This document shows, one piece after another, positions 1 through 64,000 of a stretch of 64,000 bases of DNA. The stretch lies in the NCBI GenBank assembly GCA_002118135.1, contig BDIU01000123.1, forward strand, positions 330,068-394,067. Reading direction: 5' to 3'. Below the pieces are notes generated by a model. It was not told the origin of the DNA. It worked only from the letters and a program-made list of their open reading frames with translations, and searched no databases. Each line of letters starts with the position of its first letter. Positions within the stretch are counted from its first letter, which is position 1. This DNA comes from Trebouxia sp. TZW2008 (lineage: Eukaryota; Chlorophyta; Trebouxiophyceae; Trebouxiales; Trebouxiaceae). Position numbers and translations under genes: made by a program.

Positions 1-5
1 TTCTC

Positions 6-310
6 GTACCTGCTGATATGCAGCTCCTGTTGCAGGTGTGTTGATTGCGCTTGGAAGCCCAATCACAGTCATGACAGAGCAAACAAAACGGCAGGCATGG
101 CTTCACAGGCACACAATCCATATCTGCTGGTATGCAGCTGTTGCTGCAGGTGTGCTGACCGTATGTTGGTAGCTGATGCTGGAGCAACGCATGTGAAATG
201 TCAAGCGCGCTCTCAGAACCACTGAATGATATGTGCAAGTAGGTACGTGTAAATGAAGCTCACCTGCTGGTATGCAGCTCTTGCTGTAGGTGTGCTGAGC
301 GTGCCTTTGA
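6..310. repeat. Three copies of an exon 3' junction (CFAP157-like exon 6)
   Basis: The donor end of the last visible exon (about 262-304) recurs at about 124-167 and 6-49. The shared core on plus is CTGCTGGTATGCAGCT and relatives. The copies carry variant intron starts. One may be a true downstream exon boundary. Confidence 0.75.
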
Positions 311-1759
311 GGCTGCAAGCTGCTGCTGGAGCAGTGCAACCTCTCCCTCAAGGCTCAGTGAAACTTGCTGCATCTCCTGCACTTCTTCATCCCGCTCCTT
401 CTTGCTCTCAGACTCCTCCATCATCTTGGACAACTGCATCAAGTGGAACGCGACTGCTTGCTTGATTTTGCTTGATGCTGAATCACCCGGACAAAACATG
501 CTGCATGTGTATTGCTAAGTTGCTTTCTCTCTCCTTCTTGCTCTAGGACTCCTCCATCATCTTGGACATCTGCAATGTATGGAATGCAGTTGCTTGATCA
601 AAGTTTGATAGTAATGGTATTGAGCTACACGTGCAAAGGTGCTAGGTGTGCGTGGCACAAGCCCAGTCTTCCCAGGCAGGAATCTTTTGACCAAAAGCTG
701 ATGTGCCACAACCTGAATGTATCACTTTATTAATTTGGTGCTGAGTTGCTGCAACCTGTTCATGCCTCTCCTGTTGCTCTCACACTTAACCCTCACCTTG
801 GACAAGTGCAACACATGCAGTGCAGTTGCTTCACCATAGTTTGATGCCTGGCAACCTAGCTATCCCATGTTTATCCCATCTCGTTCTTGCTCTGAATGAA
901 CTGCAATGCAAGCGTTTGCTTGGCCAGATCCTGCTGCTCTGCGACTTTCACGCTACAAGTTGTTGTGTAGCAATAGATTCAAGCATTCCATGCAGCCAGC
1001 AGCATGATGCCGTGGTAGCCTTGGTGCGCGTCATTCCTCAACCTGCAAAAAAAAGCAACAAACGTCTAGTATGCTAAAGTCATCCAAGCGTCCAGGCTGG
1101 ATGCATGTGCCACCCAGTGGTAATGACTACATGGCTGTGGGTGGCATCAGATACAGGTGCAGCTATCACACAGGCAAACCCTTGAAGTAGTCTTGCTGCA
1201 CATATTGTGCATGCAGTGAGCGTATGCTGATGTAATGACCGTGCAGCAGCAGTTGGAGCAGGTCGACTGACCAGCTTTTGGATGGTTTTCTGGAAGACTT
1301 GGCTCTTCTTGGCCAGTTCCTGTTCAGTCTGCTCTGCTAGCTGAGCCTGTCTCTTCAGCTCAGCCTTCTCTGCTATCCAGCCCTGGTCTTTAGCCACCAT
1401 CAGCTCAACCTGTACAACACACGACGTGCCTGTCATCAATTTGCCACAGCAATGGTGTGAGCGTTGTCAAGATGCCTGATCCGCTGCTGAGACTAGCTCG
1501 AAGTGCCACAACATGAGGAGTGTCTGCAACCCTTTTCATTGACTCTTGTTCAGTCTGTTCTGCTAGCTGAGCCTGTCTCATGAGCTCGGCCTTCTCTGCT
1601 ATCCAACCCTGGTCTTTTGCCATCATCAGCTCAATCTGTCACAGCAGCAGCAGCAGCAGCAGCGATTATTGGAAAAACTTGTCAGCTAGCAGCCCTAAAC
1701 TTGTAGCACCACAGCTGACTTTGTCGGCATGACAACATTGGCATGCAGAGATCAGAGCT

Positions 1760-1791
<32 letters not shown>

Positions 1792-3674
1792 TGCAGTGAC
1801 TGTTGAAAATTCCTGTCACCTGGCGTGATTGGTACTTGAGCTCAGCTGCCATGGCCTCATTCTCTAGGATGGTGCGCTTGGTGAGGGTTTCCAGCTGGTT
1901 CTCAGACAGCTTCTGCATGCGCTCCCGCATATCTTTCAGCTGTGCTGCCGTGTTCTTCTTCCAGGCATCCTTGTCCTGTACATGCTGCCGCTCCAGGTCC
2001 CTGCAGCAGGAAAAGGAGGATCTGCATCATTTTCTCATGTAAATGTGACTTGACATTGATCCATGACAATTTCTGCATGCGCTACGGCGTGTGTTTCAGC
2101 TGTGCTGCTGTGTTCTTCTTCCAGGCATCCTTGTCCTGTACATGCTGCCGCTCCAGATCCCTGCATCAGGACTTTGCACCTTCAAAGGCATTCTGTTGCA
2201 CTGTTGTGCACATCAGAATGTATGCAATTTGCTGCTGGTGCACCCTATGCACCTGCTCCAGGGTCTGTGTCAGCTGCTACAGGTGATTGCCCTGGGCTGG
2301 AGCACTAGCACAGTAAGAGGCACGTCTGGGCTGACACTGCATGTGCTTCCACGAAAAGGGAGTGAAGTGCATAGCGCTGTGTCTATGCAATTCATGGTGC
2401 ATTGCAGCACTAGCATAGCAATAGCAATGTTGCGTACGCAATTTGCTGCTGGTGCAGCCTGCGCTCCTGCTCCAGGGTCTGTGTCAGCTGCTGTATGTTG
2501 GCATCCATGCTGTCCTTCTGGTCCAGGAACTGCTGGCTGGCCTTTACCTTCTTCTCCATGTCTTGGATGAAGCTGTTCTGCTCCTCCAGCACCTGTGCAT
2601 GAGCTTGCTGGATCTGATCCACTTCATCCTGCAGAACAAAACATGTTGAGGCATTGATTGTCTTCAGTGATGCTGTTCTGCTCCTCCAGCATTTATATAC
2701 ACAAGCATTTGCTTGTCAATCCTGCATCTAAAGGGAATGCTTGATTCCCTGCATTGCCTATTCTACAAGCACTTGCTTAGTTATTGTGTGAGCACGCAGG
2801 ACCAGACAATTCTCAGCATTGCTAGTCTGATATCAGCCTACATTTCAAGCTTGCTGAAAGGAAAAGCCCAAACGCTCATGCCACACAAAGGCCAAAGCAG
2901 CGTCAAGTTAGCAAAGTCAACAGCACACCACATGAATGCAGCAAGGTTCTACTCGTGCACGCATGGCCGAGTACATGAGCATGTCACATTGACACTGATA
3001 AACAACACTGCAGCCACTTGGTACTTAAAGTGACAAGCTCGAGTGCCAACCATATGCAACATGATCGGCTGCAGATCTTGCTCTTTGCAAATTGCAAACC
3101 GTCTGCCTTACTCACCGTGTGCTTTTGCTCAATCTTGTCAAGAATGGCTTGCTGCTTTGCAGCCTCTGCTTCCATCTGCTCCAGCTTTGCGCTGGACTGA
3201 GCCAGCTCTCCAGTGAGGAACTCATTGATGTCTGCAAGATTCAACTTCTGCGTGTCCAGCTCCTGCCCTAGCTTGGCGTTTTCAACCAGCAGGACCTCCC
3301 CTCGCTCCTGGTGCCTGAATGTGCATTGATGTCGAACCCTTGACTGCAAATGTGTATGCATCCTGAGTGTGCTGATGTTTGACAGGCATAAGCGGCCAGC
3401 AGCTGCACTGATGTAGGCAGACTGCACTGAGTTGAGCTGTTAGCACTGCCGTCATGTGTGGCGTGGTGACTGCTGCTAGAACCTGTGTATGTTTTGAAGC
3501 TTGACCGCCGCACAGCAGGGCTTCGCTGGCGGACCGGCGTTCAAGAGTAGTTGCGTACCTGCTTAAACGAGTCTTCAAGAAGCTGATAACCAGCTCCTTT
3601 TCCACAAACTCCTTTTCATAGTCAGCTGCATCATGGTCGACTTGTTTGGCCACGGGCGCTGCCTTTGGTGGCAT
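264..3674 (-). CDS. CFAP157-like ciliary coiled-coil protein, 3' end off window
   Basis: Exons (minus): 3559..3674, 3116..3314, 2438..2628, 1820..2000, 1272..1409, 264..433. All phases agree, and the last exon ends in phase 2, so coding continues past the left edge. The start is ATG at 3674 (MPPKAAPVAKQ). The product is almost wholly charged heptad-like helix. Its order of segments resembles animal CFAP157, a basal-body/axoneme protein: FLKTRLSRHQERGE, then DKDAWKKNTAAQLKDM, then a TKR-I-EN segment and a KKSQVFQKTIQKL segment. The resemblance is from memory and by eye; another ciliary coiled-coil family (BBOF1/DUF4515) is possible. Introns hold degenerate copies of the neighbouring exon ends (see repeats). 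It is divergent from the DUF547 gene. Confidence 0.62.
401..923. repeat. Degenerate tandem copies of an exon 5' junction
   Basis: The acceptor side of exon 6 (about 401-470) recurs at 532-600 with high identity. It recurs more weakly at 767-835, and as a fragment at 881-923. The conserved core on plus is GACTCCTCCATCATCTTGGA. All copies lie in the intron between exons 5 and 6. Confidence 0.75.
1548..1637 (-). repeat. Second copy of exon 5, open but truncated
   Basis: On minus this encodes MAKDQGWIAEKAELMRQ, nearly identical to the true exon 5 at 1272..1409. It has a usable acceptor (TGACAG) at the same position. The copy loses similarity after about 30 codons and shows no good donor. It is either a decayed duplicate or an alternative first half of exon 5. 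Confidence 0.75.
1642..1662. repeat. (CAG)7 microsatellite
   Basis: An uninterrupted CAG run just upstream (in minus sense) of the duplicated exon-5 acceptor. A second run of about ten CAG units lies at 1761-1790 in the same intron. Confidence 0.9.
1761..1790. repeat. (CAG)10 microsatellite
   Basis: Ten CAG units flanked by GCTG, inside the intron between exons 4 and 5 of the CFAP157-like gene. Confidence 0.9.
2071..2170 (-). repeat. Decayed copy of exon 4 with an in-frame stop
   Basis: This matches the first part of exon 4 and its acceptor (1911-2010) at an offset of 160 bp. The reading frame is kept for about 27 codons (DLERQHVQDKDAWKKN). It then meets TAG at 2084-2082, in frame with the phase that exon 4 uses. 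The acceptor is intact, so inclusion would truncate the protein. Confidence 0.8.
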
Positions 3675-16596: not shown

Positions 16597-19500
16597 TCAG
16601 ACTGTCAGCTGTGCTTTTGATCTCTGCTGCTGTTGCAAGATCTGTATCCGTTCCAAACGCCGCGCTGTCAAGTCTGCCAGATTCTGCTGATCAGGTTCAT
16701 TTGCCTCAAGTTGCTGCTGCTGCCGCTCATCCAGTCTGCTCTGCAGTGCCGCCTGCAAAATGCCAGATGCCAGATTTGCATCAGCGATGTGCTTGAAAGA
16801 ATGCAACAACGTCGCCAAAAAGGCAAATAGCGCTGGTGCTAAACATAACCCCATTGCTTAAGGTAGATATTAGCATGCATGTGATGTGACGAAGACCCTG
16901 CTCAAACGACTGAATCAACGAGCATACAGTCAGCAGCTTGAGCTCATGTACAATTTACACAGACAGTTCTCAACTATAGCAGAGCAGAGGCAGCAGCACT
17001 TGACAGAAATGGCTGTGACCAGGCGCACTGGATGTGCAGAAGGCCATGCCCAACAGCAGTCAGAAGGTGTGCATGCTGTATTCGCATTGATGCTTGCATC
17101 GCAGCAACAGGGGCATGAGCTGACACTCAAGGGCAGTCACAGCCAAAGTGCCACATTGCATTGACACCGTCATCTTGAAGATGTGCATGCGGCGGTCAAA
17201 ACGCCAGTGTTGTAGCACCAGGGAATCAGATTCAGGGCAAGCATTGCAGCACTAGTGAGATGAGCTGACCTTGACAAGTTCCTTTCGTGCTTGGCGCTCA
17301 TCTCTAGCTGCTGATTCCTTGCCTCTGAGGCGATCTATATGCTTGCGCCTGCGGGCCAATCTGCCACTGCCGCGGCCTCCTATCATGCTGGCCTTACTTA
17401 TCTCATCGTCAGAACTGCAACTCATTGACGTCTTTGGGAGAGTGAAATATTGTATCAGCAGAACTATGTTGGTCCCTACCGTGCTGGCTCTACTGATCAC
17501 ACCATCAGAGCTGTGACATATTCTTGCCACGTAATGTCATCAAGAGTCATGATGATGATGACGATGATGATGGTGATGAGGAAGAAGCCAGCCAGAAGAG
17601 GAGCGATGGTGAGTCAATGGGAGCTCATCTGTGGCTGTGCTAGTTGCAGGAGTGGCCTGCCTGCTTTTAGGGAGATGCGAACAGCATGCCAATAATGATG
17701 TACTGCAATGTCACCAGCAATAATGTAGACGATATTGAATGAGGTTGATGATGAGGAAATTCTGACCTGTAGCTGGTCCAGTTGCCGTAGTAGCCTGCTT
17801 GCTTGGGAGGGCGCAGCAAGCGCGGCGCCTCCATGCACTGCTGACTGCAGCAACCTGCATAGGCTTCCTGCATCCCATCAAAAAAAGGGTGTCACTCCCT
17901 GGCTGTTTAGACGGCGGCCCTCAATGCTCATGCCTGTACAAGGCGCCTGGAGCATGACGGCATGTCATTACATGCTATAGAGCAGAGTTCCTTCTGCACA
18001 AGGGTCAAGACTTTTGTTGGCAACATGGGCGTGACTGGCCATCATGACAGTCGAGGCACTTCAAGGCAAGTGTGTGCAGGCAAGCGGGTGCTGCATGGAC
18101 AAGCCTAGCATCAATATGCCTGACTGTCAACAGTGCGTCAGCTGCAAAGCCTTCAAACACAAACAGGCATATCAATTGCAGGACTGCAGCAGGTGCAGCA
18201 AAGTGGGACCACAAACAGGTAACAAACAACAATGCCATGAACAGATGCCAACCTTGTGGGTGTCAAAGGCGAGAAATAGCTTCTCGCAGTCTATGTATTG
18301 TAGTGGGACCGTAGATATATGGATAAAAATGAGACCACAAACAGGTAGTTGGTGCTGATCTGGTGAGTGTCACAGGCAAGGAAGCGCTTGTCCCAGGGTT
18401 TGTAGGAACCCTTGTGTGGGGTACAGAGGCAGACTTAAGATGTACCGGCTGTGAGTGTCGACCCACACAGGCGCAAACACAGTGGGACCACTTACAGGTG
18501 CACATTTGGGATTGCAGCTCAGAGCTTGAACCTGACCTTGTGGGTATCACAGGCCAAAAAGAGCTTGTTGCAGTCTATGTTAGCGCAATTCATGTGGGGC
18601 AGGGAGGCCGCCCCTCCACAAGCCGCACAAGGGGCTGCTGCCACCAACTGCCCCTCGTGTGCAGGATCCCCTGCAAGAAAAACAAGACAAACAACAATTG
18701 ATGTGAACTGTGTTTGGGCATGCATTGAAGGCACTGGAAGCCTTTTGAAGTTGGTAGAAAGGCCTGAAAATCCTGCCACCAATGGCCCTTCAAGCGCTTA
18801 GCTGCCACCCCACACCTCATGCCTCTCCTGAAAGAACAGCTGAATACAAAAGCGGCTTGAATCACGACAGTCATCTAACGCCTGTTCTGCACTGTTTTTG
18901 TATTCCTCAAATGAATCACCTGATACAGAGCCACCGACATGCAGTTCCCAGGCAAACTCTGAGAGGCCTCACCTGAGGGGACAGCCATACGGCCATCAAA
19001 CACAAACAAGCTGCCATCCCACAGCTCATGCCCCTCCTCCCTCAAGTAGTTCTGAATCCCGCCTTCCAGAGTGTACAGATTATTGAAGCCCTTGTCTCGT
19101 AAGTGGGCTGAGTACACGTCACAGCGGATGCCGCCTGTGCAATACATCATGACTGGCGTGTTTGGATCTTTGCCTTGCAGGTAGCTAGGGATGGCATCGC
19201 TGCTACTCGACTCTGTAGGTGTCTCATTGAAGTTTTCCTGCATAAAGATGTTGACTACTGTTGCATACTTTGCGGGTTGTAACAGTCAAACTTTGCTTCT
19301 TGATTGAGCCAAAGTTTTTGCCTGATTTCTGTCAAACAAGCCTTTCAAAATGTAGAACAGCAGCAGTTGTGACTACACCAGACAATATTTGCACAAGCAC
19401 TGCCCATATGACACGACCGCTCTTGATGACAGTGGTGAAGGCATGCAATGAGAATGCACGCCTCTTGAGGCCTCTCAGCCCTGTGGAAGTGGCCGGCATC

Positions 19501-21755
19501 CCACTCACAGTCATGATGCTGCGCTTGCACAGCCGAGCATGCAGACTGCACTCAGGAGAAGACTCGAGTACTGTCAAGCATTCAGAGTGCAAAAGCCCAC
19601 AAAGATACTGCCCACCTCTTGAGGTCTTTCAGCTCCCTGAAAGTGGCCAGCATCCCACTCATAGTCATTGCGCACATCCAACACCACTACATCTGGATTG
19701 CCTCTGCTGTTCAACACATTTCTCCCTCGCGCTCCATCGATTGATCCATCAGGCTCTTGCACTCCATTGACTGACATGTTTGCCTCTTGCGCTGCGTTGA
19801 CTGACCCATTTGTTGGTTTTGTTCCATTAACTGAATCATTTGGACGCTGCCCTCTGCTGACTGAACCATAGCGGCCCCCTTCTTCACCACTGCTGGAAGA
19901 CTCAGCAGTGCTGTTTGGTCTCAAGTCTGCATCTATGACCTGGCTGAGATCAACATGTTGCGACTGATTGGCATTACTGTGTCGTGACTGATCAACATCA
20001 GTGTGTTGTGACTGCTTTGGATGAATGTTCTGCGACTGGCGGGAATCATGATGTTGTGACGGGTCAGCTGACTTTAGCAGCTGAGCGCTTGCCAGCATCT
20101 GTTTCCATTGATATGGTGCTAGGGGTGTTGCGCGAGCCTGCACAACAATTATTCTTGTGAGGTAAGGGCTCAGCCCCAGAAATTGTAGAATGAGTGAAGT
20201 AAATGGATCAACCCCAAATCAACTTTCTGCTAGCTGCTACAGTCAGCGACTCTGGGCTGCTTCTGCTCAACATGCTACAGTCATGGCGCCTAACAGCATA
20301 GACTTTTCTGCTTGTAAGCATAAGATGCAACTGGCATATTGTTACTGGATCCATGTGTACAGTGCCATGAATTGTAGGTGCTGCAAGCAAGCAACATTGT
20401 CAGGGTACGGTGAATGCACAGCCAGAATCGCTGTTCAGAGGTTTGAGGTGCTCAAGGCAGAACAGAGGTGTAAGGCACCAAATGCTGTGAGTGGTGTGAG
20501 TGGGTCTTGTGATTTGCAATGAGCTGTGCAAAGATGTCAGACACCATATGCTCTGTGTACCATGAGTTGAGATTTGCAATGCATTGTGCATTTGAGGGAT
20601 GCAGATTTGTCAGATTACCTCAGGGTCTGTAACAGGCAGCCTTGTCATGCCTCCTGCAAGAGATATCAGATTCTGCTTGAATTTCAATCTGAGCTTGGGG
20701 AACTGATGGCTGTCAACAGGAAAGCTGCTCCATTTCAGACCCTGTAGCAGATGCACTGCATGTTTTCAGAGGGACAGGCAGCTGAACATATCGTTGAGAG
20801 CTGACGCTCTTACACAACTTTCTGCAGACAATGTGCAACTCATGCTCTGCAGGTTTGCTGAAGGCCACAATCTCAATAATAAGCAAAACGCAAGTCAGTG
20901 ACTGCCTCCTTCAACAAATTGATGCATGCAACATTTGCGGATCTTTGCATCACTGGCTATAATGTGGCGACTGCCTTTTTAATGCTTCGAATTAAACAGC
21001 TCTGATGGTAATGGCTGCAAGAGCACAGTGTCCACTTGAAGCTGACAGTGGCTCTTGTATGGTACAGATGCGGCTTTGTGATGTGCATTCCAGGCTTTTC
21101 TGAAAAGGTGAGCTTGCAAACCTTGAATAAGTCTTGCGTTTCCAGCCATCTTGCGTAAGCTTCAGCATCAGCTGTCAGACCGCTGTACTGAGCATTGATG
21201 CCCTGAGTTGATAGGTAGATTCGGCCGCACAAATCCCTTTCTTTTGCCCATAGCTTGTGTTCTGCAATCACCTGCAAACGACATTCCATGTATACATTCT
21301 TGAATGCAAGCTGCGGTGTGGTGCAGTGCTATGCAGGTCTGCTTTCAAAATGAGAATGCACCATATCAAGAGCACACCTGGTGAGGATTTGCTATGCTGA
21401 CTAGGTGGTAAAAGTTGACAACCCGATAGGCTGCCTCGGCAGCATTGTCGCTGTTGGACAGAACTGTGATGTTGGCATCGTCCGTCATTGCAGATGGGCT
21501 TGTGACAGATAGGTCAAGTGCTGCGCTGCCGGAAAGGGCAGAGCTTGCACTTTCTTCCATTGAAGCTTGAGCACTTGAACTGCTACAAGCTTGCCTGCGA
21601 GCCCATTGGCGTGGTCGCCAAAGACTGCGTTCAGCTGTCGAAGGAGAGCGCTGAGGTGTAGGCACTAAGACTGCCAAGTCGCAGTTTGCCACGGAGCCAA
21701 AGCTTTTTGAGGTCAATTTGAAAACGTTAAAGCTTAGTCGCTGTGCCCAGGGCAT
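16597..21755 (-). CDS. TrhO-like (tRNA uridine hydroxylase) rhodanese protein, plastid type
   Basis: Nine exons (minus): 21378..21755, 21122..21271, 20619..20741, 19616..20137, 18973..19237, 18537..18670, 17767..17867, 17270..17414, 16597..16752; 657 residues, all phases consistent. Order of parts: Ser/Arg-rich N-terminus (likely transit peptide); TrhO N-domain (RIYLSTQGINAQYSG, FPKLRLKFKQNLISLAGG); rhodanese (VVVLDVRNDYEWDAGHFQGA, active-site loop MYCTGGIRC with Cys near 424); Cys-rich C-domain (CAACGG, MNCANIDCNKLFLAC, GCCSQQC) and RLLRPPK. Bacterial TrhO makes 5-hydroxyuridine at tRNA position 34; plant relatives are STR-type proteins. Oddities: a ~120-residue Ser/Gln/Asn-rich insert with repeated SVNG units before the rhodanese core, and a ~100-residue basic coiled-coil tail after the usual end. 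Confidence 0.93.
17479..17520. repeat. Degenerate copy of the TrhO exon 8 5' junction
   Basis: Matches 17384-17425 at an offset of about 95 bp (shared cores CTGGCYYTACT and CATCRGARCTG). It lies in the intron between exons 7 and 8. Confidence 0.65.
17637..17680. repeat. Degenerate copy of the TrhO exon 7 3' junction
   Basis: Resembles 17770-17815 (GTAGCCTGCTTGCTTGGGAG in the true copy) at about 133 bp offset, in the adjacent intron. Confidence 0.55.
18247..18455. repeat. Two degenerate copies of the TrhO exon 6 3' junction
   Basis: The exon-6 donor region (about 18528-18610) recurs at about 18368-18440 and 18247-18305. The phrases 'TGGGTRTCAMAGGC' and 'CGCAGTCTATG' are shared. Both copies sit in intron 6. 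Confidence 0.7.
19442..19521 (-). repeat. Copy of the TrhO exon 4 3' end
   Basis: Encodes EWDAGHFHRAERPQEA, against EWDAGHFQGAERPQE in the true exon end at 19616. Offset about 163 bp, inside intron 4. The donor of the copy is lost. Confidence 0.8.
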
Positions 21756-22802: not shown

Positions 22803-25800
22803 TCAGGACCCGCTAGTGACCAGCACAGCTTGCACAGTGGTATCCATGGTGGCAAATTTGTCCCTGATCCAGTACTGTATCAAGTATTTGGATGCCGGCT
22901 GCAGCACTGAGCCATTACAACCTCTCAGAGTAAGATCGCCAATGTCATTTGCTCCACCATAAAACACAGGAACTCTGCCATTGCCTATCTGTAGTGACCC
23001 TGGGCCGTAAGCACTATCCACTGGTGTTGCACCCGTCACGTTGAATACAGACAGGATGACCAGGCCTGGTGCTGTCAATGCAAAATCAATCCGGATGGAA
23101 CCCTGCAAAGCACAATTCCATCAATTTTTTCTGTGCAGCTTTCTTCTCAATCCAATCATTCTAAACATATGCTGGACTGGCTCAGCAGGCCCAGCTAGGT
23201 ACATACTGGAGCAATCAGTAGTCTCCAACCAGTTTGGTCCCCTGCTATCCTGAACCATTTGTTTTGCGCAGCACACCTAAGAGCATGCTAGTTCCTTTCA
23301 TGTGAGCTGATGTTGAGTGTGCTGACAAATTTCAAGTGCAATGCAGCCTGTGGCTATGAAACTATTTTGCTGCACTGTTCAGCAGATTATTGCCTTTGAG
23401 TATGCAATGTTGCAGTTGTTGGAAGATGCAAAACATGTGCTGAGTAAGCGCTTCTTTGGTGCTTGAAGGTGTGAGTTTGCATAAATTGGGCCATGACATG
23501 TACAAGCAGGCAGGGAATGGAATCAGCAGTCTCACCGGCACAGGCGTGAATGTAGGCCAGGTTGGCAGGAACGTCGGTATAGTCTGGTTCTGCAGATTAA
23601 CTGAGAACTGCAGCGGCTTGCCAGTAGTATTGGTTGCCGGAGCAACCGTGCCATTGCTCAGAGTCCAATTGACATAAGTGCCAGACTGAAAGTTTGGCAA
23701 ATCCACTCCCAGTCTCCTCTGCAGCAAGAAAAGCAAAATCCACACTATTAGGCATCATAGGAAGCACCAAATATGCCTAGAATCAAATCCTAACTGCAAC
23801 CCAAATGAGTCTGCTGTCTGCCAGGCCTGCTTCTGATACAGTCTTGCTCTCATTCGCAATGAGACAGGTGACACGAAGACCCATGGATGTATCAGGAAGT
23901 ATCTCTGAGCTATGCTCAAGAAGCCAGATCTCTAGCAACAGCAAAAAGATCTGCTTACTCTCACCTGGTTGCAGTTGGCAAATGCAGTGGTCGGACAGCC
24001 AGAGGCAACAGCTGGTAAGGCGCTGACAGGCGTGCAGGCATTGGCCAAGCCGTTATTGGTGGTGCCATTATCCCGAGCCACCATGAACACCTGAAAGCAC
24101 ACAGCTACAGCTTTGCGGCGAACCTCAATGTCTCACATGCGGTCTGCAATCTCAACCAAGCAGAGCAGCTTGTCATGTCAACTGCCTAGACCATGAACAC
24201 CTGAGAGCAAACACCACAGGTCTGCTGCCAACTTCAATGCTGTACATACACTTTACAGTTTCACCCATGCAGAGCATTTGTTGGCGTCAATTGCCTGGAC
24301 TCAACTGCCTAGACCATGAGCACTTGAAAGCATACAGCTGCAGGTCTGTTGGCTAAGAGCATTGTTGCAGACACAGTAGGCAGCCTCAACCAAGCAGTGC
24401 AGTTCTTGGTGTCAGTTGTCAAGCAATCACAGTAACAGACTCAACATGCTTTTGGAAGACTGTTCAGCTTTCATGCACAGACACATGCTTAGGCAAAGAG
24501 GCGCATGGCCAGAAGTTAGTTGGGTAACCACAAATAGCAGCAGGAATGCAACACAAAAGGAAGTCTACAGCTCACCCTGTACGTATCACTAGCTGTGCCC
24601 AAACTGCCAGAAGCAAAGCAGGTCTGGTTCGTCAGTCCACTGAAGGGGAAAGCTGACAAGTTGCCCTGGAGTGTAGCTGAGCCCTGCCCTGTTGCATCTG
24701 TGCTGAAGTTGGAGAAGCTGACTGAGTCACACTGGCCGACACCTCTGCAAGCGCAGTTGGTGGAAGGCAGAGTAGAGCCATTCCTGATGTAGCCGGTGTC
24801 AGGGTTGCCAGTGATGGCACAGGGGTTCAGGCTAGCGCTGCCATAGTCCCTGCAGATTGTACTTGCTTGGTCAATCTAAATGTAAGGATGAAACACCTGA
24901 AGTGCTTGTGCTGTAGCATGCAACAATGTGCAGAGTGCTCGGTCTGTGTCGATATCAATTGCAGAAAGCTTGAGAATTCGTGATGCAGCCTCCGCACATG
25001 TAAACAGAGAGTGGAACAGGACGCAATGGCTACAACAGCGACCTGCCATCATGTCTATCGCAACAAAATGCTGCCATAACATCACTACAAGTGCCTGTGA
25101 GGTCCTGCTGCACAACTTCATTGATCATTGTGCAGCTGTCCATACCTGTAGATGCTGTAGAACACCTGGCCCACTACACTGGTGTTGACCGTCATATTCA
25201 TGGCAAATCCTCCAGTGCTCTGATTCACCAAAGGCGCTGTGAAGTTCAGGAAGGTGAATGTCGGAGGCTGGTGGTTGGGAGTCAGCACGCCTTGCAACAC
25301 ACTCACGGACGGCTGCACATTGCTAGAGGCATCATTTGCCACCAGGAAGACCTGCAGAGAATGTGTATTTGGGAATCAGCACATATTGCAACACTCTCAA
25401 GTCAAGGAGGTAGTAGTCCGGTCACACGGGCAGTGCCATTGAGTGTGGTCAGAGTGGGGAAGTGGCCATTGCACCCTCACAGTGAGCGTGACAATGCAAG
25501 ACAAATCAGCAAAGTCAGGCAGTGCTGCCGGAGCACCTACTTACCGTGTAGTTGGTGGCAGGCATGAGCCTAGTGATAGAGGCAGTCCCATTGGCTCTGG
25601 CCAGGTTGGTGAAACTTCCACTGGCGGTAGCTGCCACTGCAGAAGGGCCCTGCCCTGCTTGTACATTGGCCACAGTTGGAGGGCTGTTCACAGCGTCCAC
25701 CTGCGTAGCAAATTTTGTGAATGCAGCAGTCAATCTCAGCAGCTGCTGCCTCTACTTGCAATCATTATTGGTAATGCCGGTTGCTGACAGCAGTGACTGC

Positions 25801-28800
25801 CCACCAGCAGGCACAGCTAAAGTCAGCACAACTCTGTCATTCACTGGCTGCGCCTCATTTTATGATTCACTGATTGTACAATGGGGTCAGTATAAGCAGG
25901 TTTGGGCCTCTTGAGTGTGCATGCAGACAAGTGGCAATGTCAAAGCCGGCAACAGGCATTTGCCTCATCAACACAGAGGCAATCAAGTCTGTCTGTCAAG
26001 GCCTTGCAGCCTCTCATGAGCTGATGCATAAGGATGCTTTTAGACTTGGCATATGATTGCTTTGATCTGACCGATGCAAATGGCATGACCATGTGCATAA
26101 AATGTTGCAGCCTTGCACTAGGTTCTGCGAACAAGAGGCATTGCACGATCTGCTGCCACAGCCAACAGTACTGTAGCGCCGCAGAAGCCTTACAAAGGAT
26201 GTGTGCTTACCGACGCAGATGGCATGACCACATAGTACACCGTTGCAGCCTCATACAGCGCCACTGCCAAGGTGAATGAGGTGTCGTTGATGTTGAGGGC
26301 GGTAGGAGACCCTGGCATGAAGGCAGGGGGTAAGGCGTCGGGTAGGCTGAGGCTGGTGTAGGGGGTGAAGGTGGAGGAGTAGACATTGCTGGCAAGAGCA
26401 TCAGCTTGGTACACCAGCTTCTGGGGAGAACCATAGTACGGGTAGAAAGACTGGTTCTGCACCAGACCCTACAACAGGACAAAATTGGTGAGGTTTCAAT
26501 TGAGTGGTGAATCTGGCATATGCACAGTTGTGAGCAGGGGTGCAGCATTAAATTTGAAGGTGCTGCAGCACATTGCAGCAACTGCTGTCATAGATACTGC
26601 AGTACAAGACAAGTGCTCAGCGTACGGGCCAAGCTGAGCACCAGCACTTGCTGAGTGAATGGCAAGTTTGGCTTAGGAGCCACAAACGACTTGAATGCAG
26701 CATCTCTGCGCAAGCACAGTCAGCCAAATACACATAGACAGATGCTGCTGTTACCACACACCGTAAGGTCCAGGCTGAGCACCAGCACTGCGAATTGAAT
26801 GTTGAATTTGGCATAGGAGCTACCAAAGAGCTGAATGCAACATGAGAACTGCGGAGGCAATCTCAGCCAAGCACAGACAATTGCTGCAGTCAAGACTCAC
26901 TGTGCGATCCAAGCTCAGAACCAGCACTGCCAGCTGAATGGAGGGGTTGGCATAGGAGCCACAGCTGGTAGCAGGGGCCACACTGGGCACCACCACGGTG
27001 TCAAAGCTGCCGCTGCCGGTGAAGTTGGCGGTGGTCAGATATGTGTTGGTGGGAGTGAGGGTGGCTGACCCTACGCTGCCGTTGGTATTGAGGAAGGTGA
27101 GAGGCATGCCTGCTGACAGCTCCAACTGCGGCAATGAATCAAACAGTCATTGCATGCCTGCAGGGATTGACACTGCAGCAACATACCTGCCAGTGTGGAT
27201 CCAAGCATCGAATGCTCCTACTGGCACTTACGGCATCAGCTGAATGCAATACTAATGTTCATTGTTAATGAATCTCACAGTCACGCTTTGTGAGTTTGTC
27301 GTTATTCAGCATGCCATCTTGCTGAGCAAGTAAGTTGCAGAGTCCAGTGCAGCTGGTCTTTCAAGGGTGATGCATATGCACAGGACGATTGCATTCACAA
27401 ACCTGTCTTGAACATGCAAACAATATGTCAGAGCAAACGCCATCCGGTTTGTTGCGACGGTCTCTATAGCAAGTGTTGCTTGGCCAAAGTGCCAGGATCA
27501 AGCAAACGCATAGGGCAGGAAGCTGACCTGCACCACGGTGTAGTTGCCAGTTGTCAGAAGCGTGCTGGTGGTGTCACGCAGGCGCACACTGACATACATG
27601 CTCTGAGACGTCACATTGGGCAGAGTGATGTACACTCCATCCAGGAACCAGGTGAGGCCTGCGCTGATCAACTGCAGCGACGCACAAGTAGGCAATCATC
27701 TTCAGGCCTCAATCAATACAACAGTCCGCCGAGATAGCACGCTTGCCAAAATGTCACATATCCATGCAACATTTCAACGCTTGCAAGAGCCTTCAATTAT
27801 TGTGAAATCATGTTACGTGATGTGAGGTGAGGTGATGTGATGTGATGTGATGCATTGTGTAACAACATAATTAGTAATGTATTGTGAAACAGCATGACGT
27901 GTTGAGTATACAGGCAAGCTTGTGCTTGTCATGTTTCTGGTGTGGATTGTAGATGATCTTTGCGGGTGATCAAGCTGGCACTCATGCTGTGCTTGCGGCC
28001 TTGTAACAGTGAATGTGAAAATGACTCAGTGAGACCATTTGACTGTCACAGTGACAGTGACTGTGACTGCAGCTTGGGAAAGTGAGAGGTCTGCACAGGA
28101 TACCTGGTAAAGAGCCTTGTCTTCAGAGCTGCCAGGTTGTGGCTGGTAGGCCTGCCCCACTGCCGCTACCAGGTTTGTGGCAGTGCTGTTGTCTGGCCTA
28201 GGCAGGTAGTACTGATTGCTGCTAGACAGCGCAGAGTAGTACCTGTAGAGAAGATACCTAGTTTTAAATACAAGTGTCATGGCTGTTGACTGGTGACAGT
28301 GGTCTTGTCAGGCCGTGGTAGGTACTACCTATTGCTGCTAGGCAGAGCCGAAAAGTACCTGTAGACACAACACCTCAAGGTTGAGAAAGAAAGTGTTGAA
28401 GGCCAGTATTGAGTGGTAGTGATTTTCTCTGGTTGCAGCAAGTAGTACTCATTACTGCTAGGCAGCACAGAGTAGTACCTGTAGACAAAACTCCTCAAGG
28501 TTGAGAATGCAAGTGCAATGGCCTTCATTTGTGGCAGTGGTTTTGTCTGGTTGCGCCATTGGTAACAGCCATTGTTGCTAGGCAGCACAGAGTAGTTCCT
28601 GTGAGCAAGGTGTCCAAGGGCTGAGAATAGCTGTTGCATGGCCCTGTTCAGTGGTTTGGCAATGTAAGTGCTGCAACAACATCTTGATGGTAGTGGTCAA
28701 TGCAGAACAGACTTTGCAACTTGCCAAGCAGTCAGAGTCTAGACGAGGAAGGAGTTGGTTAAACTTTTTCATGTGATTCCATGGTGCTGTCTGACATTGC

Positions 28801-31800
28801 GGACTTCAAAACAAAAGCTGACATGGTGATAGGGCTGTGAGATGTTCTTGTCCAGCACAAGCAGAGCACGCTTTGCCAAAGTCCTGGACAGCGTTGAAGG
28901 AGATCAGCCTCAGAGCCTGAGTGAGCCAAAGAGCCTCAGCATAGTGTTGAGCCCCAAGAGAGACAGGTACAGTGGAGGAGGAGAACTGACTTGAAGGCAG
29001 GATCCAGCTCCTGCCTCTGATGTGGCAGGACTGCTGACCCGCGGTTGGTACTGTTGGTCAGCAGGTTGCTGTAGTACAATGCTTGGTTACTGTTGTCCCA
29101 AGAGCCCCTCAGCGTATCCAGCAGCAGCACATCCTGCATTGCACAAAGCGTCGATTACAGCTGGGACAGAGCCTGAAGGAAAGGCAGCAGCTTGTAGCAG
29201 CAGCAGAATCAGTTGACCTTTTGAGACGGAGATACAAGCATCTGTAATGTCAGCTGTTCAAGGCATGCTGTAGGAGTCACCACAGGGAGTATCAGGCCAG
29301 CAGCACCAGGTTGAATTGCCAATGATAGTCGATGTGATGGATTCAAACTCTTGACAGTGATGCCATGCTCGCTGTGAGTTGCCAAAGAAATGGTTGCAAG
29401 AAGCTGTTGAATTGTCCTATTGCTACACTCAGACAGCGTTTGTGAACAATATGCAACATCAGACAGGCGGTCTTCAAGCCTGGTCATGGCTTTGGCTGCT
29501 CGGTTGTATGCAATCAGCACATGTGCATTGTGCCGGAGCACTGCTGGTGATTCATGCAGCCATACTCTCATGGCATTGTTACGCTGAATGCTGCATGATC
29601 TGCAACAACCAAGGCACCATCAGGCACAGTGCTGCTGCAGGCATGTAGGCACAAGAAGCACCACAGCACTCATCATCGGCAAGCTTGAGATGAGACAGTA
29701 ACCACCGACCTGCACAAAGGTGAAGCGGCAGTCGTAGTTGATGTCCCCAAAGGTGGCATTAGACACAGCTGCAGTGCATGTGGACCCAGCCTGGGTCAGT
29801 TGCCGCCCTGACCCCCTACCCTCCTGCTGCCAAGCCACTGCAGCGGTGTGCTGGGTGGCTTTGCCCCGCCTGACCTGGGTGTTGTAGGCGGGCTGCACTG
29901 GAGCCTGGTCGGCTGGGATAAGCTTGACTGGCTGCATGCCGTAGTCCTTGCGCAACAGATGCCGCCGCCCTGTTGACGCACCCACTGTCACCTGCAGCAG
30001 TACAGAATGCCTGTTAACTGAGCCAAGCAAGTGCAGCGGTGTGCTGGGTGGTTTTGCCTTGATCTGGCCTTAGTGTTGTAGGCAGGCTGCACTGGAGCCT
30101 GGTCAGCTGGGATAAGCTTGACTGGCTGCATGCCGTGGCCATTGCATAGCAGGTGACGCCACCCTGTTGATGCACCCACTGTCACCTGCAATGGCACTTG
30201 CAACCTTTTTACTGTGTCTGATCAGCTGACACATGCAGGGTCACTTGAGCCATATCAGCTATATACTATGCCATGCTGCTATCAAAGGTGCATATCCTTC
30301 ATATTCATCAAATCATATCATGCAGAAAACAGGTCAGATGATCATTCTGCAAGCAAGATCTTGTCTGAATGATGGCCAGCATCACCGCTAAAGCAGCATC
30401 CCACCGTGCCGCTGGCTGCAACTGCCGCCACACCAGAAACTGAGTTGCCGTTCTGTTCAGCCATGCCCAGGATGTCCACAGTGATTGCGCCACTGGACCC
30501 CGCAGCACCAATGACTGTGAAAGTGACATTGGCCACACTGACATTGGTGCCCTGCTGTGAGGCAAAGGGAGGCTGCAGGATGCTGTTCATGAGCACACTG
30601 GTGGCGTTGCCTCTGGCGTTACAGACAAAGGTGAGGCTGTTGGCTGGCCAGTCAGACCCTGGAGCGCAGTTGGACTCGCTGGCTATGGAGAGAACACTGG
30701 GCGGGTAGTTCAGCCGCAACTGCACAGGAAAACCCAGAACTGAATTTTGAAACAGTGGCAAGCCAGAACTGATTCAGGCAGAAGTGCCAAACATGTCTGT
30801 CTGCCCAAGAAGTACGTCATGGCCATGCAGAATCAGGCATGCTTTTGGGTCATTCACAGAGCTCCCATGCATGCACGGATGCAATGAGTGAGTATGGATG
30901 CTACTGACATTGTAGCTGCCTTTGCTTGCATAAGGGCAGAAGATGCAGCACATCCAGTGATATGCCATCAGAGCATGCAGCATACAAGCACGGTAACGTT
31001 TGCCAATATCCACAACGGTCTCACCTGAAAAGCAATCAGCGGAGACGAGACCGCATTCACTCTGACATCCATGTTGAAGCTCTGGCCATTCTGCAGCAGC
31101 GTAGGCGTGGCAGTCTTGCCAAGCTGGCTCTGCACTTGCAGCCCAAAGCGCTCACCAACGTCCACATCAAGCTCAGCAGGGTCAAGGTTGGCATAGACTG
31201 AGGTGAAGCGTGCAACAGCGCCTGGGGCTGCACAGCTGGAGCTGATGACAGCTTGCAGAACCACTTGTGAGGCAGAGTTGCCAGTCAGCGTCAGGTCCCC
31301 ATAAGGACCTATCTGTATGCTGCCAGCCTGCATCAGGTATGAGTCCATGGTTATCGTTGCTGTGACGCAATTGCACGGCAGGTGAGGGGCCTGTTTTCTC
31401 AGACTCAAGAAGGTCAGCTACAGATGACAAGATGTGCTGACCAGTTGCCCACTGGCGAATGACGCTGGACAAGGCTATGACTGTGCACATGAGGCATGCC
31501 CAAATTTGATCTTGATTCAGAGGATATGCAGGACTTGTCCTGACATCCAAAGCAAAAACAGATGCAGCTACGCACTAGCTGTCTGACTAGACAGTCACAT
31601 GAAAAGGGTGTGTTGTTGGTGTGCATCTGGCAGCATTGCTGCAAAACCTGTCTGTCAAAGCAGCATTTGTACACATGCAGACTTACACAGCATTTACTGT
31701 GTGAGCTTACCGGTGTGGCTACAAATGTCATGACAGAAGGGATGTTCAGGATGTCGAGTGGCTGGCGAGCTGAGCCCAGTGTCTGGCCAGCTGAGCCCGG

Positions 31801-33627
31801 TGTCTGACCATTAAGCGTATATGTGTAGCCATCACCAAGCACAATGGTTGCCTGCAAGCAAACAAGACCCAGCAGCTCTGTCAAGCAAGGCTAAGCTACA
31901 CGATGTCTTCAACTACGACAAAGCGCCTTTTGGGCATGTGCAGCTGTCACAGGCTTAGCTTGAGCAAGTTTGACTAGAGTGGGGCAAAATATCAAAAGAG
32001 GCTGGATCTGTCACCATGTGCTTGAAGACAAGGACTTCTGAATGGCATGTCCATATTGTCTTGCTGAGACCGTTTTGCCGAGACAGCAAACCACGAACTG
32101 TATTCAGAGATCATTTACAGCCAGCAACAATGCAGGCAAGCGATCACACAGTCAAGCTGCCCTTGCACCATAAACCGCTGTTCAAGTTGCATCAGCAGCT
32201 AAGCTCACCTGTAACACGTTCACAGATCCATTCACCCCTGCAAAAGTGCTGCCGCACTGCAAATCTGTGTTGTTGCTAGTACACCAATTGGCTGACAGCG
32301 CTACAGTGACCACTGACTGTGGTGTCGAGCCAATGTTTATGCTGAGGCTGTTAGCATGAGTGACAGGAGTGGGCCCAAAGGTGCCTGCTACAGTTGCCAG
32401 GCCAGCTTGCAGAGGGCGTAACCTATTGAGCAAGGAGGGAGTGCCTAGATTGGCTATCAGCTTGACTGTGGCTGTTGTGGTCACCGTGAGGGTTGTGCTG
32501 GCCGCCTGTCATACGCAGCACATCAAGAGCTCAGATTACTTTATAGCATGTACTTGCACAGTTCAGATATTGCCTGTGAGTGCATCAGTGCAAGCTTGAG
32601 CAAAGCAGATGCACTGTGAGCTGCAAACTCAACGCAAATGGTCAGCACGCCTCTCAGAACCTTTGTTTGCTCAGTTGTGTAGAGGCAGCTATGGCTAACT
32701 GTGCACTGCACAATGTAAAGCGCACCATAAGAACCTGTATAGTGCACTGCAGCTTCCTGTGTGCACTGCACATACTGCAACCACCCATGTGTACTGCAAC
32801 ACTGCAGCATCCTGTGTGTACTACACAAACTGCAATAGCTTTTTATTGTACACTGTGCGCAATGTGCACTGCACCTGTGCACTTGAGTCCATGAATATTT
32901 CAGCATGGGGCAGCTGTCAATCTGCAGAAGCCACCTCAGCTGCATTGTGTCCATCATGAACAGACAGCCTGCCTGGCATGCTGTGTTACTTTGCACTGCA
33001 ATGCAAGGACAGAATGTTCACACAGAGAGAGGTAGTGCGCACCATGGTGAGGTCATACGCTGAGCCATTGTTCAGCACCCCCAGCATCCAGACAGTTGCC
33101 TGCAAAGCACACGCTCTATGCTCAGTCCATTTCAGCAACTGCAGCCTAGTAGTCTTGCTGACAATATAAGGGCAGGGTTGCGCACTGGAAGCCAACCAGT
33201 TAATGCGAGTTTGAAGCCCGCTAAAGGCTCATGCTGCTCAAAGCTCAATCACTGCCAATGCAAACGTTTGGTAGAAGCATCAGTCAGTAGTGGCATCACA
33301 GTCAGTGTTGGACTGGCACAGCTCATCCAACAATGCATTCAAGCAAAAGCAGGGAGTGCATGGTGCACTGGGGCACAGTCCTAATCAAGGCAAGACGCCT
33401 AGCACACATGGGCACAAGATCTGCTGTCTGGTCATCAACAAGCCGCAACAGCCTTACTTACTGGTAGTCAGTTGTGCTACAGTGAATGGAGTGCAGGGCA
33501 ATAGTGTTTGCAGCCACACATACAAGGCACTCAATGCTACCCACTCATGACTAGGCTGACAAAGCTCAAAATGTCAGGCCAAGCAGTGCATGCATGATGA
33601 TGATGATGTTGTTGATGATGATGATGG

Positions 33628-33671
<44 letters not shown>

Positions 33672-45600: not shown

Positions 45601-48600
45601 TAACCAAGTCAAGGAAAGGCCTGCTGCAAAAGCTGCACCAGAAAGCAGGACATGCGCATATACCCTGTATGCCATTATCTCATGCAAAATGCAGAGCAAG
45701 TGGACCAACATGCTGCAGAGATGGACCAATAGTTTAAACCTGACAACATGCGTAAAAATGGCGATGCGTGATGATGCTGGCACAGCACGGCATGCATCCC
45801 AACGTCTCAAGAACTTGATTAGAAGGCAGCATGACATCAGACTCCTGTGTTAGTCAAACCATACCGAGACAAGTTGGGTGTAGTTTGTGAATGCAGTGAC
45901 ATTGAGCATGTCACCGCTTGCTGCAATAGCAAATCCTGCAAACAGTGAAGCTGCCGGCTGCGTGAAAAGAGCCTGACTATCCACTACAGCTGGTAGACTT
46001 GCATTGGCAGGCAGCACAACATAGTGTGCAGAGCCTGTGACGTTCAAGGACACCACCAGAAGGAAACTGCACAGACACACGATTGCTTACAGTGCTGCAG
46101 TGTGCACAAGCCAGGCAACAGTCAAGCAGCAAATCAAGAACGGATCGCAGACAATGATTGACACAGAAGGACATAGCTCTGTCGGATCAAACTCAAGGTT
46201 ACGATGCATGCAACTTGATGCAAGCAAATGAATTGCTTGACAATATGGCAAATGTTGTCTGGGTTGGCTTCATAGACAACTGCATGAATGCCTTGTGTAG
46301 CTATCACAGCTCATGTACTGAACGGTAGATCGCAGCTTGACCCAAAAGCTTGAACAACATTCATTATTTCTTTCGTAAAAACACGTGCCAGACAGGCTCA
46401 GCAGGCCCAGCTAGGTATGTACTAGAATAATTAACTGTTTCCAGCCAGCTTGGTCCCAAGCCAACCTGTACCATTTGTGTTGAATATAAACGGTGAACAG
46501 ATCTTTGTACACAATCAATGAGACTGCAATCTTGCAGCGCTGGCAAGATAGCCTGCCACATGAGTGCTGCCATTTGCAAAGCAGCCTTACATTGGCTTTG
46601 CTGTGCAAACAGAGCCTAGTGACAGCTGCAGCACAGCCAATAATACCGCACACCTCACAACAATTCAGGTGCAGGCAGCCTCACATCCACTCAGCTCACA
46701 CGCTGAGGCATACAATTGCTGAGATTACATGTCACAGGGCACCAATGCACTGAGCCAAGTGCAGCTGTGGCGTAATGTTTCCTTTGCGAGCAGATCCATT
46801 TGCAATGCTAGCATTCATCTGGGGAGTAATCAGGTAAGGCTGCTGCAAGAGCAGACCAATTGGCAATGCTAGCATTCAGCTGGAGAGTGCGCACCTGTTT
46901 CCGGTGAGAGCAGAGCCATTGGCAATGCTAGCATTCATCTGAGGAGGGATAAGGTAGGGCTGCTGCCAGATGATTCTGGTGGCAACACTCTGCTGCAAGG
47001 GCGGCACCTGCATGTCCTCTGCCGCAAGCCAGACTGTGTAGTAGTTGCGGTCAATCAGAGGGTTCAGCAGCGTCGTGACATTGGTGCGTGCTGCAGGGGT
47101 TGTGAAGCTACCAGAGTCAACGAGGCTTGAGTTGTCAGGAGAAGTGGCTGTGAACACCTACAGACAGGATATGGTGACGCAGTCACATGCAATGTTTGTT
47201 GATGACGCAAAGTGTGAACGATCTTTGCCTCAGCAAATGCGTCACATTGAGTTGAAGAGATTTGAAGCTGTCCGCAAGTGGAATGTCACATGGAATCTTT
47301 GGTTTGTTAACTCACGCTGATGAAGCCATACCAAGCCATCCTGATCAGGGCATCATTGGTAGCCATGCTTGTTGAGGCACATATACTAGCCATGCTGTTG
47401 CAGACTTCAATCATGCCTTCAGCCATGCAAGGGAACGCACATATGACGCTGTACAGTTATGAGTCTGTAGCTGAGTCCAGCTGCTGACAGGATCTTCGCG
47501 CATGCAAATATCAACCAGCAAACAGTGCATGAATTGCCAGCATCATTTTGTTGAATGCCATGCACTGCACTTTCTACACCCGCTGCGGTCAACATGGTCA
47601 TTGACGTGGCACGTCCACAGATGCATGCAGACGCAGACATGCAGCTTTTCATGCATGCTGCAAGATGGCTAGGCACACACGCATGCTGTGCAGACTGGTA
47701 TTGGATGAAGGCTGTGAAATGTCTATTGTTTGGGAAGTGTTGTAAGGCAGACCTGTGCAGCAGTGGGGATGCTAGTGGCTTGACCCAGCATGACCATGAA
47801 GTACACAATAGCGGTCCCATTGGTGGCAACTGTCAGAATGGCATTGCCTTCTGAGAAGTTGCTGACAGCAGTGATTGTGAAGCTAGGGGGCACTGTGCTG
47901 GGAGTTGTCACATTCAGCTCAGTTGCCTGCAGTGCACAAGGCGCATAAGTCAACTGCTCCTGTAATGTGGACATGATGTTTGCCTTGATGGTTCGGTCAG
48001 GAGTGGCTGTTTGGCTGTCACTCGTGGTTGCCCTGCTCACCATGGGCATGCTGCAGACAGTGTGCAGCACACGAGTCAGACATGCTGGGTGCAGTGTATG
48101 ACAAGCACAGCACCAGCTGTGAAGTCAGTCACGCTGCACAGCATGCTGCCGCAGCTGTTGTCTTGGACCTCTGTGTTGTGCAGACTGCAGTCTCAGTGGT
48201 TGTGAAGCATGCTACAAGCTCTTGCCAACTTGATAAGCACAAATGATCAGCTGTCAACTGATTAAGCAGCCCAGACAACAGCTTGCCACTGCAGAGCTCT
48301 CTGTCAAGCACAATAAGCTGTGACAAGTGATGTGTAAGACTCAGGCACGCACCGTCGTCATGGTGTTGGGACTAGTGTAGTTATCCTGCCCGACCAGGTA
48401 CACATTGTAGGCTGACGCAATGTCCACTCCTGTCACTGTGGCGAAGCCATCAAGGTATGCTGAGGGCAGTGGAATAGTGCCAGAAGCTATGGGTGTAACC
48501 ACGCTGGTGTTTGCTGCCACATACCTTGTGCCACTGAGCACCTGTGGGACTGAGGGGGCAGCCGCACCCTGCAAGGGGCACCTTGCTGCGTCAGCCGGCC

Positions 48601-63365: not shown

Positions 63366-63585
63366 CTGAAGCAGCAAAACTTCTTATGAACAATATTGGC
63401 ACTTACTGCTGCGTGAGACAGCACAAGTGCTTGGTGTGTGTTGGCCAAGTCATGTCTTGTCTAGGACACTGAAAATGTGGATCTGCATAGTGGCTTGCCT
63501 GACGGTGCTGCAAGTTCATCACCATTGCCAAGCCTGTCAGCTGTTGGCAGTTTGATTCTTGAAATCTGTTGAGCAGTAAACTTAC

Positions 63586-63790
63586 TTTGTGCATGCAAGC
63601 ACTGCAAACAGCACAAGCAGCAAACTCATTTTATGCATGCAAGCACTGCAAACAGCACAGCAAAGCAAAACAAAGCTCAAGAGGCAAATGGCAGACTTGC
63701 AGGCGACAGTCTTCTGATCTGCTGCCCCATTTGAGACTGACACACTACCGTCATGATCTGCTGCCCTATTTGTGACTGACAGACTACCAT
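63586..63790. repeat. Two short tandem duplications
   Basis: A 43-bp unit (GCATGCAAGCACTGCAAACA) occurs twice at 63590-63660. A ~39-bp unit (GATCTGCTGCCCYATTTG) occurs twice at 63714-63796. Confidence 0.85.
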
Positions 63791-63849
63791 CATGAGGTGC
63801 AACACCGCTGCAAGCCAGATCTCACAGGCGACGGCCGCTTGCACAGCAC

Positions 63850-64000
63850 ATGCCACTCACCCTGCAACTCCACGCATGCTTCTGGAGCCATTATCAATAG
63901 ACAAATGGTGACAGCAGCTTGCCTAGCACATGGCACTCACCCTGCATCTGTGCTTGTGGCTTCAGAGCTGTCATGAACAGACAAATGGTGACAGCAGCTT
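63850..64000 (-). repeat. Duplicated exon donor junction at the right edge
   Basis: On minus, CAGGGTGAGTGCCATGTGCT occurs near 63940 and a close variant near 63850, each after a similar exon-like tail. The following intron text (GCAAGCTGCTGTCACCATTT) is also repeated. Period about 95 bp. Confidence 0.7.

Follow-up and report, generated by a model that had tools for sequence, protein, structure and literature searches.

The 64,000-nucleotide stretch analyzed here (hereafter the window) comes from the green alga Trebouxia sp. TZW2008 (assembly GCA_002118135.1, contig BDIU01000123.1, positions 330,068 to 394,067) and forms the last 64 kb of its contig, in a genome assembly of 68.5 Mb and 527 contigs. 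At its left end lies a CFAP157-like gene, followed by a TrhO-like gene and a giant gene with dozens of exons. In all three, exon–intron junctions are accompanied by decayed copies of the exon edge in the adjacent intron, which we call exon-edge echoes. Across 334,720 bp of this genome, 63 of 503 exon edges, about one in eight, matched their own flanking intron. Exon-edge echoes are genome-wide and not peculiar to the window locus: the window gave a rate of 15/114, the ten-kb stretches picked by position 31/196 and the kinase loci 17/193. The sample covers half a percent of the genome, and a similar density may hold for all of it.

The sample consisted of the window and 47 other stretches of the same genome, namely 30 kinase loci picked by family match and 17 ten-kb stretches picked by position, blind to content. 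One of these 17 adjoins the window, and 16 entered the edge-rate and edge-control counts. Exons were predicted, unsupported by RNA, by a self-trained two-strand gene finder that learned CAG/GTAAG-like donors and TGCAG/G acceptors; it yielded 322 confident exons (median 177 bp) and 148 introns between adjacent confident exons (median 302 bp). An edge was testable if it belonged to a confident exon, faced at least 80 bp of intron, had a usable splice score and contained no N. The terminal 80 bp of the exon were compared with its own flanking intron, and a score of at least 30 was taken as positive. The stretch L001, which lies inside the window, was left out of pair and edge counts. L045, which overlaps L028, was removed from the edge test, the controls, the edge-versus-intronic comparisons and the matched-age and frame tests; the overlap is counted twice in the cluster and orientation counts, the echo-match, spacer and exon-versus-intron divergence sets, the offset histogram, the synonymous analysis and the gene-finder totals. 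Echoes that were themselves called as confident exons were excluded from the echo-match, spacer, splice-site and synonymous sets.

The matches were specific to the flanking intron. When exon edges were compared with introns from other loci, 0 of 2,364 comparisons were positive; none of the 503 edges matched in reverse complement, and Markov-shuffled introns gave 4 matches in 5,030. The original prediction hinged on an enrichment at exon edges, and this was found: edges matched more often than exon centers (19 versus 5 of 141), and the near edge of an exon more often than its far edge (43 versus 4 of 303). Self-comparison of the whole sample detected 139 clusters of local direct repeats, one overlapping stretch being double-counted. 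Among pairs at most 800 bp apart, 297 were direct and 1 was inverted; offsets were mostly 75–225 bp, with a mode at 150–175 bp (118 clusters). The 56 strong cases in all sequence comprise 34 acceptors and 22 donors, so 5′ and 3′ junctions are both affected, as had been proposed. One echo was present at 43 of the 63 positive edges, two at 15 and three at 5 (at least two at 20/63); with three echoes at just 5/63 edges, the echoes do not in general form minisatellite arrays of three or more echo copies.

Within the window, self-BLAST gave 32 pairs at E ≤ 1e-3, of which 31 lay within 625 bp of each other and 0 were inverted. In 12 of the 15 positive edges the match ends no more than 7 bp from the junction, and three matches sit 36–46 bp inside the exon (sources 2559–2591, 19009–19038 and 25275–25305). 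Further copies beyond the 114 tested edges accompany the junctions of exon 1820–2000, the donor of exon 2438–2628 and exon 18537–18670. The expected number of at least 15 junctions with copies thus holds for tested and other edges together.

The echoes described in this and the next paragraph all belong to the minus strand. In the CFAP157-like gene, the acceptor edge of exon 264–433 (source 395–432) recurs at 531..568 with 95% identity over 38 bp; this echo contains a stop codon, and its intron flank is weakly similar. An older second copy of the same edge lies at 749–813 (77%). The donor edge of that exon (source 264–333) has an echo at 124..186 (79% over 70 bp) and a third copy at 7–44. For exon 1272–1409, the acceptor edge (source 1318–1413) is repeated at 1544..1639 (91% over 96 bp, offset 226), and a genome search returned, among the best candidates scored, this locus only. 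The acceptor edge of exon 1820–2000 (source 1905–2011) reappears at 2065..2171 with 91% identity over 107 bp, including 11 bp of intron, at an offset of 160; the gene finder called part of this echo an exon. At 2220..2278, an echo of the donor edge of exon 2438–2628 (source 2434–2492; 92% over 59 bp, offset 214) has no donor GT. Two echoes fall in the TrhO gene. One copies the donor edge of predicted exon 18537–18670 (source 18535–18580) to 18251..18296 (85% over 46 bp, offset 284); this exon has a low coding score and lies outside the tested edges. The other copies the donor edge of exon 19616–20137 (source 19600–19668) to 19446..19514 (81% over 69 bp, offset 154), and its genome search likewise returned its own locus only.

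In the giant gene, a three-copy array at 24080..24418 (70–73%, offsets 110 and 233) touches the acceptor of exon 23965–24090 and includes just 11 bp of exon. The donor edge of exon 26901–27125 is present three times in 26616..26963, with echoes at about 26616–26684 and 26759–26823 (72–75%, offsets 141 and 280); the predicted exon 26642–26705 is probably an echo too. Exon 28104–28242 has three echoes of its acceptor edge in 28293..28602 (period about 118 bp, 73–76%), one of which was called exon 28374–28478 by the gene finder. Exon 29875–29991 is copied with both junctions (source 29829–29996) to 30022..30190, with 87% identity over 169 bp at an offset of 193; the donor GT has become GC in the copy. 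The donor edge of exon 33844–34143, together with 94 bp of intron (source 33750–33886), recurs at 33360..33500 (73% over 142 bp, offset 390). For exon 46895–47157, the donor edge (source 46896–46970) has two echoes that overlap each other, at 46776..46941 (85% and 78%, offsets 120 and 61).

The predicted offsets of about 95–230 bp were borne out, with the 284-bp and 390-bp cases in addition. Two particulars of the original prediction did not stand. Near-identical copies are absent from the window, where the best reach 93% apart from the 38-bp match at 531..568; a single 99% case occurs in another stretch, L033, as a head-to-tail duplication that has no spacer and crosses a donor. Additionally, the tandem pair at the contig end (63827..64000, no strand assigned; 78% over 95 bp, offset 80) had been counted as an exon-edge echo, but no confident exon is present there, leaving it at most a putative exon-edge echo.

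To characterize the matches around the junction, we examined the geometry of the copies in all sequence. Of the 56 exon-anchored matches, 44 ended no more than 2 bp from the junction. Tandem duplication would necessarily give such matches, since a copy ends up inside the intron next door only when the duplicated unit spans the border. In spaced pairs, the median exon part was 76 bp and the median spacer 75 bp, and the position of the junction within the unit was uniform (Kolmogorov–Smirnov (KS) p = 0.26, n = 30 spaced pairs). This uniformity is the main evidence against a copying process centered on splice junctions, which the original prediction had put forward. On the intron side, ungapped identity dropped over 30 bp from about 0.74 to 0.32; 37 of 54 cases showed gapped similarity extending past the junction (z > 2), and the intron-side match ended 0–19 bp past the junction in 29 of 67. 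Echo matches reached the opposite exon end in 5 of 67, a count in which whole-exon copies are underrepresented since 22 clusters with both arms exonic were left out. We simulated random junction-straddling tandem duplications in which the exon changed at tolerated sites only and all else evolved neutrally. The simulated share of matches reaching the junction was 0.71–0.80, compared with 0.82 observed, and most of the intron-side drop was reproduced. In pairs with a long intron match (80–86% identity, n = 10), the exon part differed by 11.0% and the intron part by 16.4%, as expected if the exon alone is constrained. We had considered two separate processes, one stopping at the junction and one continuing past it; this was dropped, as gapped extension and simulation show a continuum. 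Tandem duplication creating an intron of unit length was also rejected: among 134 introns, 2 pairs had both arms in the flanking exons, with offset and intron lengths of 108 versus 253 and 177 versus 164.

The copies themselves, their orientation, distance, density and geometry can be read directly from the DNA, and the model reproduces most of the match profile. We think it likely that the echoes are the remnants of local tandem duplications of an ordinary kind, in which the unit happened to span a junction. They represent a known kind of mutation at unusual density, and splice-centered copying is not needed for their main features. According to this scheme, units of roughly 75–225 bp would be duplicated head to tail at random positions, by slippage or staggered-break repair. 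Where a unit straddles a border, it would comprise a piece of intron and a piece of exon; the splice site adjoining the remainder of the exon would stay in use, leaving the protein unchanged, and the outer copy, made up of exon edge, splice site and some intron, would be left stranded within the intron. The exon half should remain recognizable for longer, as one of its partners is under purifying selection, and the intron half would decay in both partners. This unequal decay of the halves would tend to make the visible match end near the junction.

Several observations weigh against so simple an account. Edge pairs outnumbered intronic pairs by 53 to 16, whereas geometry and modeled detectability predict an edge share of 0.42–0.49; the excess is 3.6–4.7 fold in odds after modeled detectability. 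A stricter set of 134 introns gave 20 edge versus 4 intronic pairs (predicted edge share 0.54–0.60). At matched age the excess was 4.6–5.4 fold (clock factors 1.27–1.35, t < 0.12–0.15), and 3.3–13 fold at t < 0.08–0.10, the latter with just one intronic pair to compare; on the assumption that intronic pairs diverge at twice the rate of edge pairs (clock factor 1.0), it was 2.3–2.5 fold and not significant (p 0.06–0.13, t < 0.12–0.15). Young copies are scarce, with 2 of 56 echoes at least 95% identical. Nor do the echoes appear neutral. In spaced pairs of at least 80% identity, 115 of 203 changed codons were synonymous (57%), compared with 32% simulated for a neutral echo (z 8.7); pairs with intron homology showed 83 of 162 against the same 32% (z 6.5), and all edge pairs 246 of 537 (46%, z 7.4). 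A simpler mutation model raised the neutral synonymous expectation to 35–38%. Codon-position mutability was rejected as the cause, the relative mutability being 1.06, 1.02 and 1.00 at positions 1, 2 and 3, even though variability at CpG sites was roughly double. Spaced pairs below 80% fit neutrality (39 of 137 synonymous, 0.285 versus 0.294 expected). Indels were rarer than in noncoding pairs, with 5 gaps against 242 substitutions. The intron side was more eroded than simulated (z > 4 in 0.37 observed versus 0.54–0.73), and deep inside the exon the match was better preserved (0.69 at position −60 in pairs of at least 86%, simulated 0.48–0.57). Moreover, most spacers of spaced pairs match neither flank: similarity was significant in 4 of 26 on the intron side and 4 of 23 on the exon side, further tests gave 2 of 26 and 2 of 22, and at p ≤ 0.1 the counts were 4 of 32 and 7 of 32. 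As these spacers mostly lack significant flank homology, head-to-tail birth is inferred for those pairs, not seen.

Three quantitative oddities therefore remain, namely the edge excess, the scarcity of young copies and the synonymous excess of the echoes, none of which is predicted by simple neutral decay. One guess is that edge pairs persist better: identical intronic duplicates might collapse freely by recombination, but where an echo is already damaged, collapse would pass that damage on to the exon. Such locking would retain border-straddling duplicates and remove young ones. Alternatively, the leftover features could arise if the copies already differed when they were joined, through exchange between diverged alleles or a strain-merging assembly. 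It is conceivable, though in our view doubtful, that junction-straddling duplications are preferentially kept, either locked in or born between diverged alleles, and that about one in eight edges carries a long-lived spare junction bearing a mark of coding selection. If this were true, Trebouxia introns would owe much of their sequence to echoes of the exon borders that flank them.

Other explanations account for some of these observations. Exon edges could be copied into the neighboring intron by a junction-targeted process, for instance through R-loops, nucleosome edges or RNA intermediates at exon borders. The excess of edge over intronic pairs, the frequent intron-side end within 0–19 bp, the spacers that match neither flank, and the nucleosome-like size of the median exon (177 bp) and of the unit (about 150 bp) would all fit. 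We nevertheless regard such targeting as unlikely, given that the junction is uniformly placed in the unit, that random tandem duplication with unequal decay largely reproduces the junction peak, that gapped homology runs into the intron in 37/54, and that intronic pairs and arrays of similar size occur. Another possibility is that some or all echoes are, or recently were, functional coding sequence under selection, as alternative or newly gained exons. The synonymous excess and the few indels agree with this; the splice dinucleotide was kept in 38 of 46 echoes compared with 33.4 expected (AG 26/29, GT 12/17); 8 of 56 echoes combine a usable site of their own with an open, frame-keeping partner; and a junction-crossing duplication can create a new intron, as in the potato RdRp gene (PMC4974935). 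On the other side, around the inner ends of the echoes partner splice sites were not enriched (mean percentile 0.44, n = 34), frame-keeping partner-site lengths showed no excess over the other two classes (12, 8 and 11 of 42 by length mod 3), 4 of the 22 echoes with 80% identity or more contained stop codons, the splice dinucleotide was lost in 8 of 46, and the spaced pairs below 80% look neutral. Functional echoes are accordingly quite improbable, and we rejected the view that echoes are cassette exons in general, in light of the two partner-site tests, the stops and the lost dinucleotides.

An assembly artefact, in which two diverged haplotypes or strains were joined so that the same border appears twice with exons aligning but introns not, would account for the few near-identical copies, the synonymous excess and the matches ending at the junction; short N runs in L045 and L048 possibly reflect scaffolding, or else masking. 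However, genome searches with four probes returned, among the best candidates scored, only the probes' own loci apart from a microsatellite, giving no second copy elsewhere of the kind an unmerged haplotype would leave. The 47 other matches of one probe all fell on an ATG microsatellite at 33594–33755, an intronic array of 54 units. At least two echoes occur at 20 of the 63 edges, a part of the echoes have stops, frameshifts or dead splice sites and hence are not functional alleles, and the assembly size lies inside the published range of 63–74 Mb for Trebouxia (PMC11523091). We hold such an artefact to be very unlikely. Insertion of a transposon or introner has nothing in its favor beyond the abundance of echoes in introns, and it is hardly credible: the echoes and spacers of spaced edge pairs had no match at other loci of the sample, the copies are local only, and each matches its own neighboring exon. 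That the copies are neither a transposon nor a dispersed repeat family, as originally proposed, is upheld by these searches. Tandem duplication across the junction, followed by unequal decay, remains the reading we favor.

The echoes had also been proposed as a source of new splice sites and exons. One part of this proposal stands, as 22 of 34 echoes retain a usable splice site of their own; the other does not, since neither partner sites nor frame-keeping lengths are enriched. The echoes are, as judged from sequence, potential alternative splice sites.

Internal duplications are reportedly frequent within genes and can include splice sites, according to the survey of Gao and Lynch (2009); Trebouxia adds a density of about one in eight tested edges and a decay profile. 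Tandem and mutually exclusive exon duplications similarly involve local direct copying of exon sequence, but the Trebouxia copies are mostly partial exons that reach one junction and show no partner-site excess. The closest published likeness lies in the potato RdRp gene, where a tandem genomic duplication crosses one intron–exon boundary (Ma, Lan & Niu 2016, PMC4974935). The unit there, too, crosses one boundary and leaves two acceptors and an exon piece in what becomes intron. Two marks of such a junction-crossing duplication are present in Trebouxia: copies are direct and adjacent (297:1), and one junction is spanned (44/56; near versus far edge, 43 versus 4). A co-duplicated intron piece is visible at z > 2 in 37/54, although in spaced pairs it is significant in just 4/26 and 2/26. 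Unlike the potato case, which is a single event with an RNA-supported new intron, Trebouxia presents many events in which the outer copy is apparently silent. Intron gain through duplicated exon segments, described in a review (PMC3443670) and a Drosophila study (PMC2891723), shares with the echoes the head-to-tail copying of coding DNA with splice-site-like sequence; in those cases, however, the unit lies inside an exon and makes a new intron of its own length, whereas in Trebouxia the unit bridges a junction already in place and makes the intron there longer. Introners (PMC9860276) also shape introns, green algae included, but as a dispersed family, whereas the echoes have no sequence common to different loci.

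A term search of the main text of two Trebouxia genome papers (PMC11523091, PMC12712428) found no instance of "tandem" in either; "intron" was absent from the first and appeared once in the second, within a reference title. Titles and abstract openings in the literature contained no report of exon-edge echoes at such density, in a search that mostly did not cover subscription literature and is no proof of absence. Tandem duplication across splice borders is known from scattered cases, and its occurrence at 63 of 503 edges makes the formation and decay of such copies, and the fate of their splice sites, measurable in bulk. It shows how introns collect spare splice sites. It also carries a warning for annotation, as echoes resemble exons and misled the gene finder here (2086–2160 and 26642–26705).

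Regarding the genes of the window, a protein assembled from six exons predicted in the left-hand gene had its best matches in three other Trebouxia (73, 66 and 55% identity). Its exon borders are collinear with those of the homologues, in which each echoed segment is present once. The CFAP157 label is that of the original prediction; one homologue is titled "Cilia- and flagella-associated pr...", and Pfam returned no match. The gene models of Trebouxia A1-2 and C0009 have additional stretches of 36 and 46 residues, placed precisely where the junction precedes exon 1272–1409 (window 1410–1819), perhaps a retained intron, and that of C0004 contains none. The second gene encodes UPF0176_N and rhodanese domains (Pfam), the domain content expected of TrhO. 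The giant gene spans about 22207–53618 on the minus strand, an extent given by the gene finder only, and many of its exons are in phase 0; exons 30405–30719, 25146–25351 and 44740–44964 had no Pfam match. Elsewhere, exon 6886–7100 encodes an F-box domain, 11021–11206 a chlorophyll a/b-binding domain and 58917–59147 a MAPEG domain.

Other repeats were also observed. A minisatellite at 40724–41427 in the giant gene consists of about ten 70-bp units with a higher-order period of 140 and adjoins exon 41391–41649. The same gene contains a dispersed 104-bp direct pair (23163–23266 and 46379–46482), 78% identical and 23 kb apart. The 22 clusters in which confident exons hold both copies (for example, L004 1–736 and L036 3499–4283) may be in-frame coding repeats or else echoes called as exons. 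In noncoding copies across all sequence, CpG sites differed about twice as often as other C sites (0.404 versus 0.189), which suggests CpG methylation.

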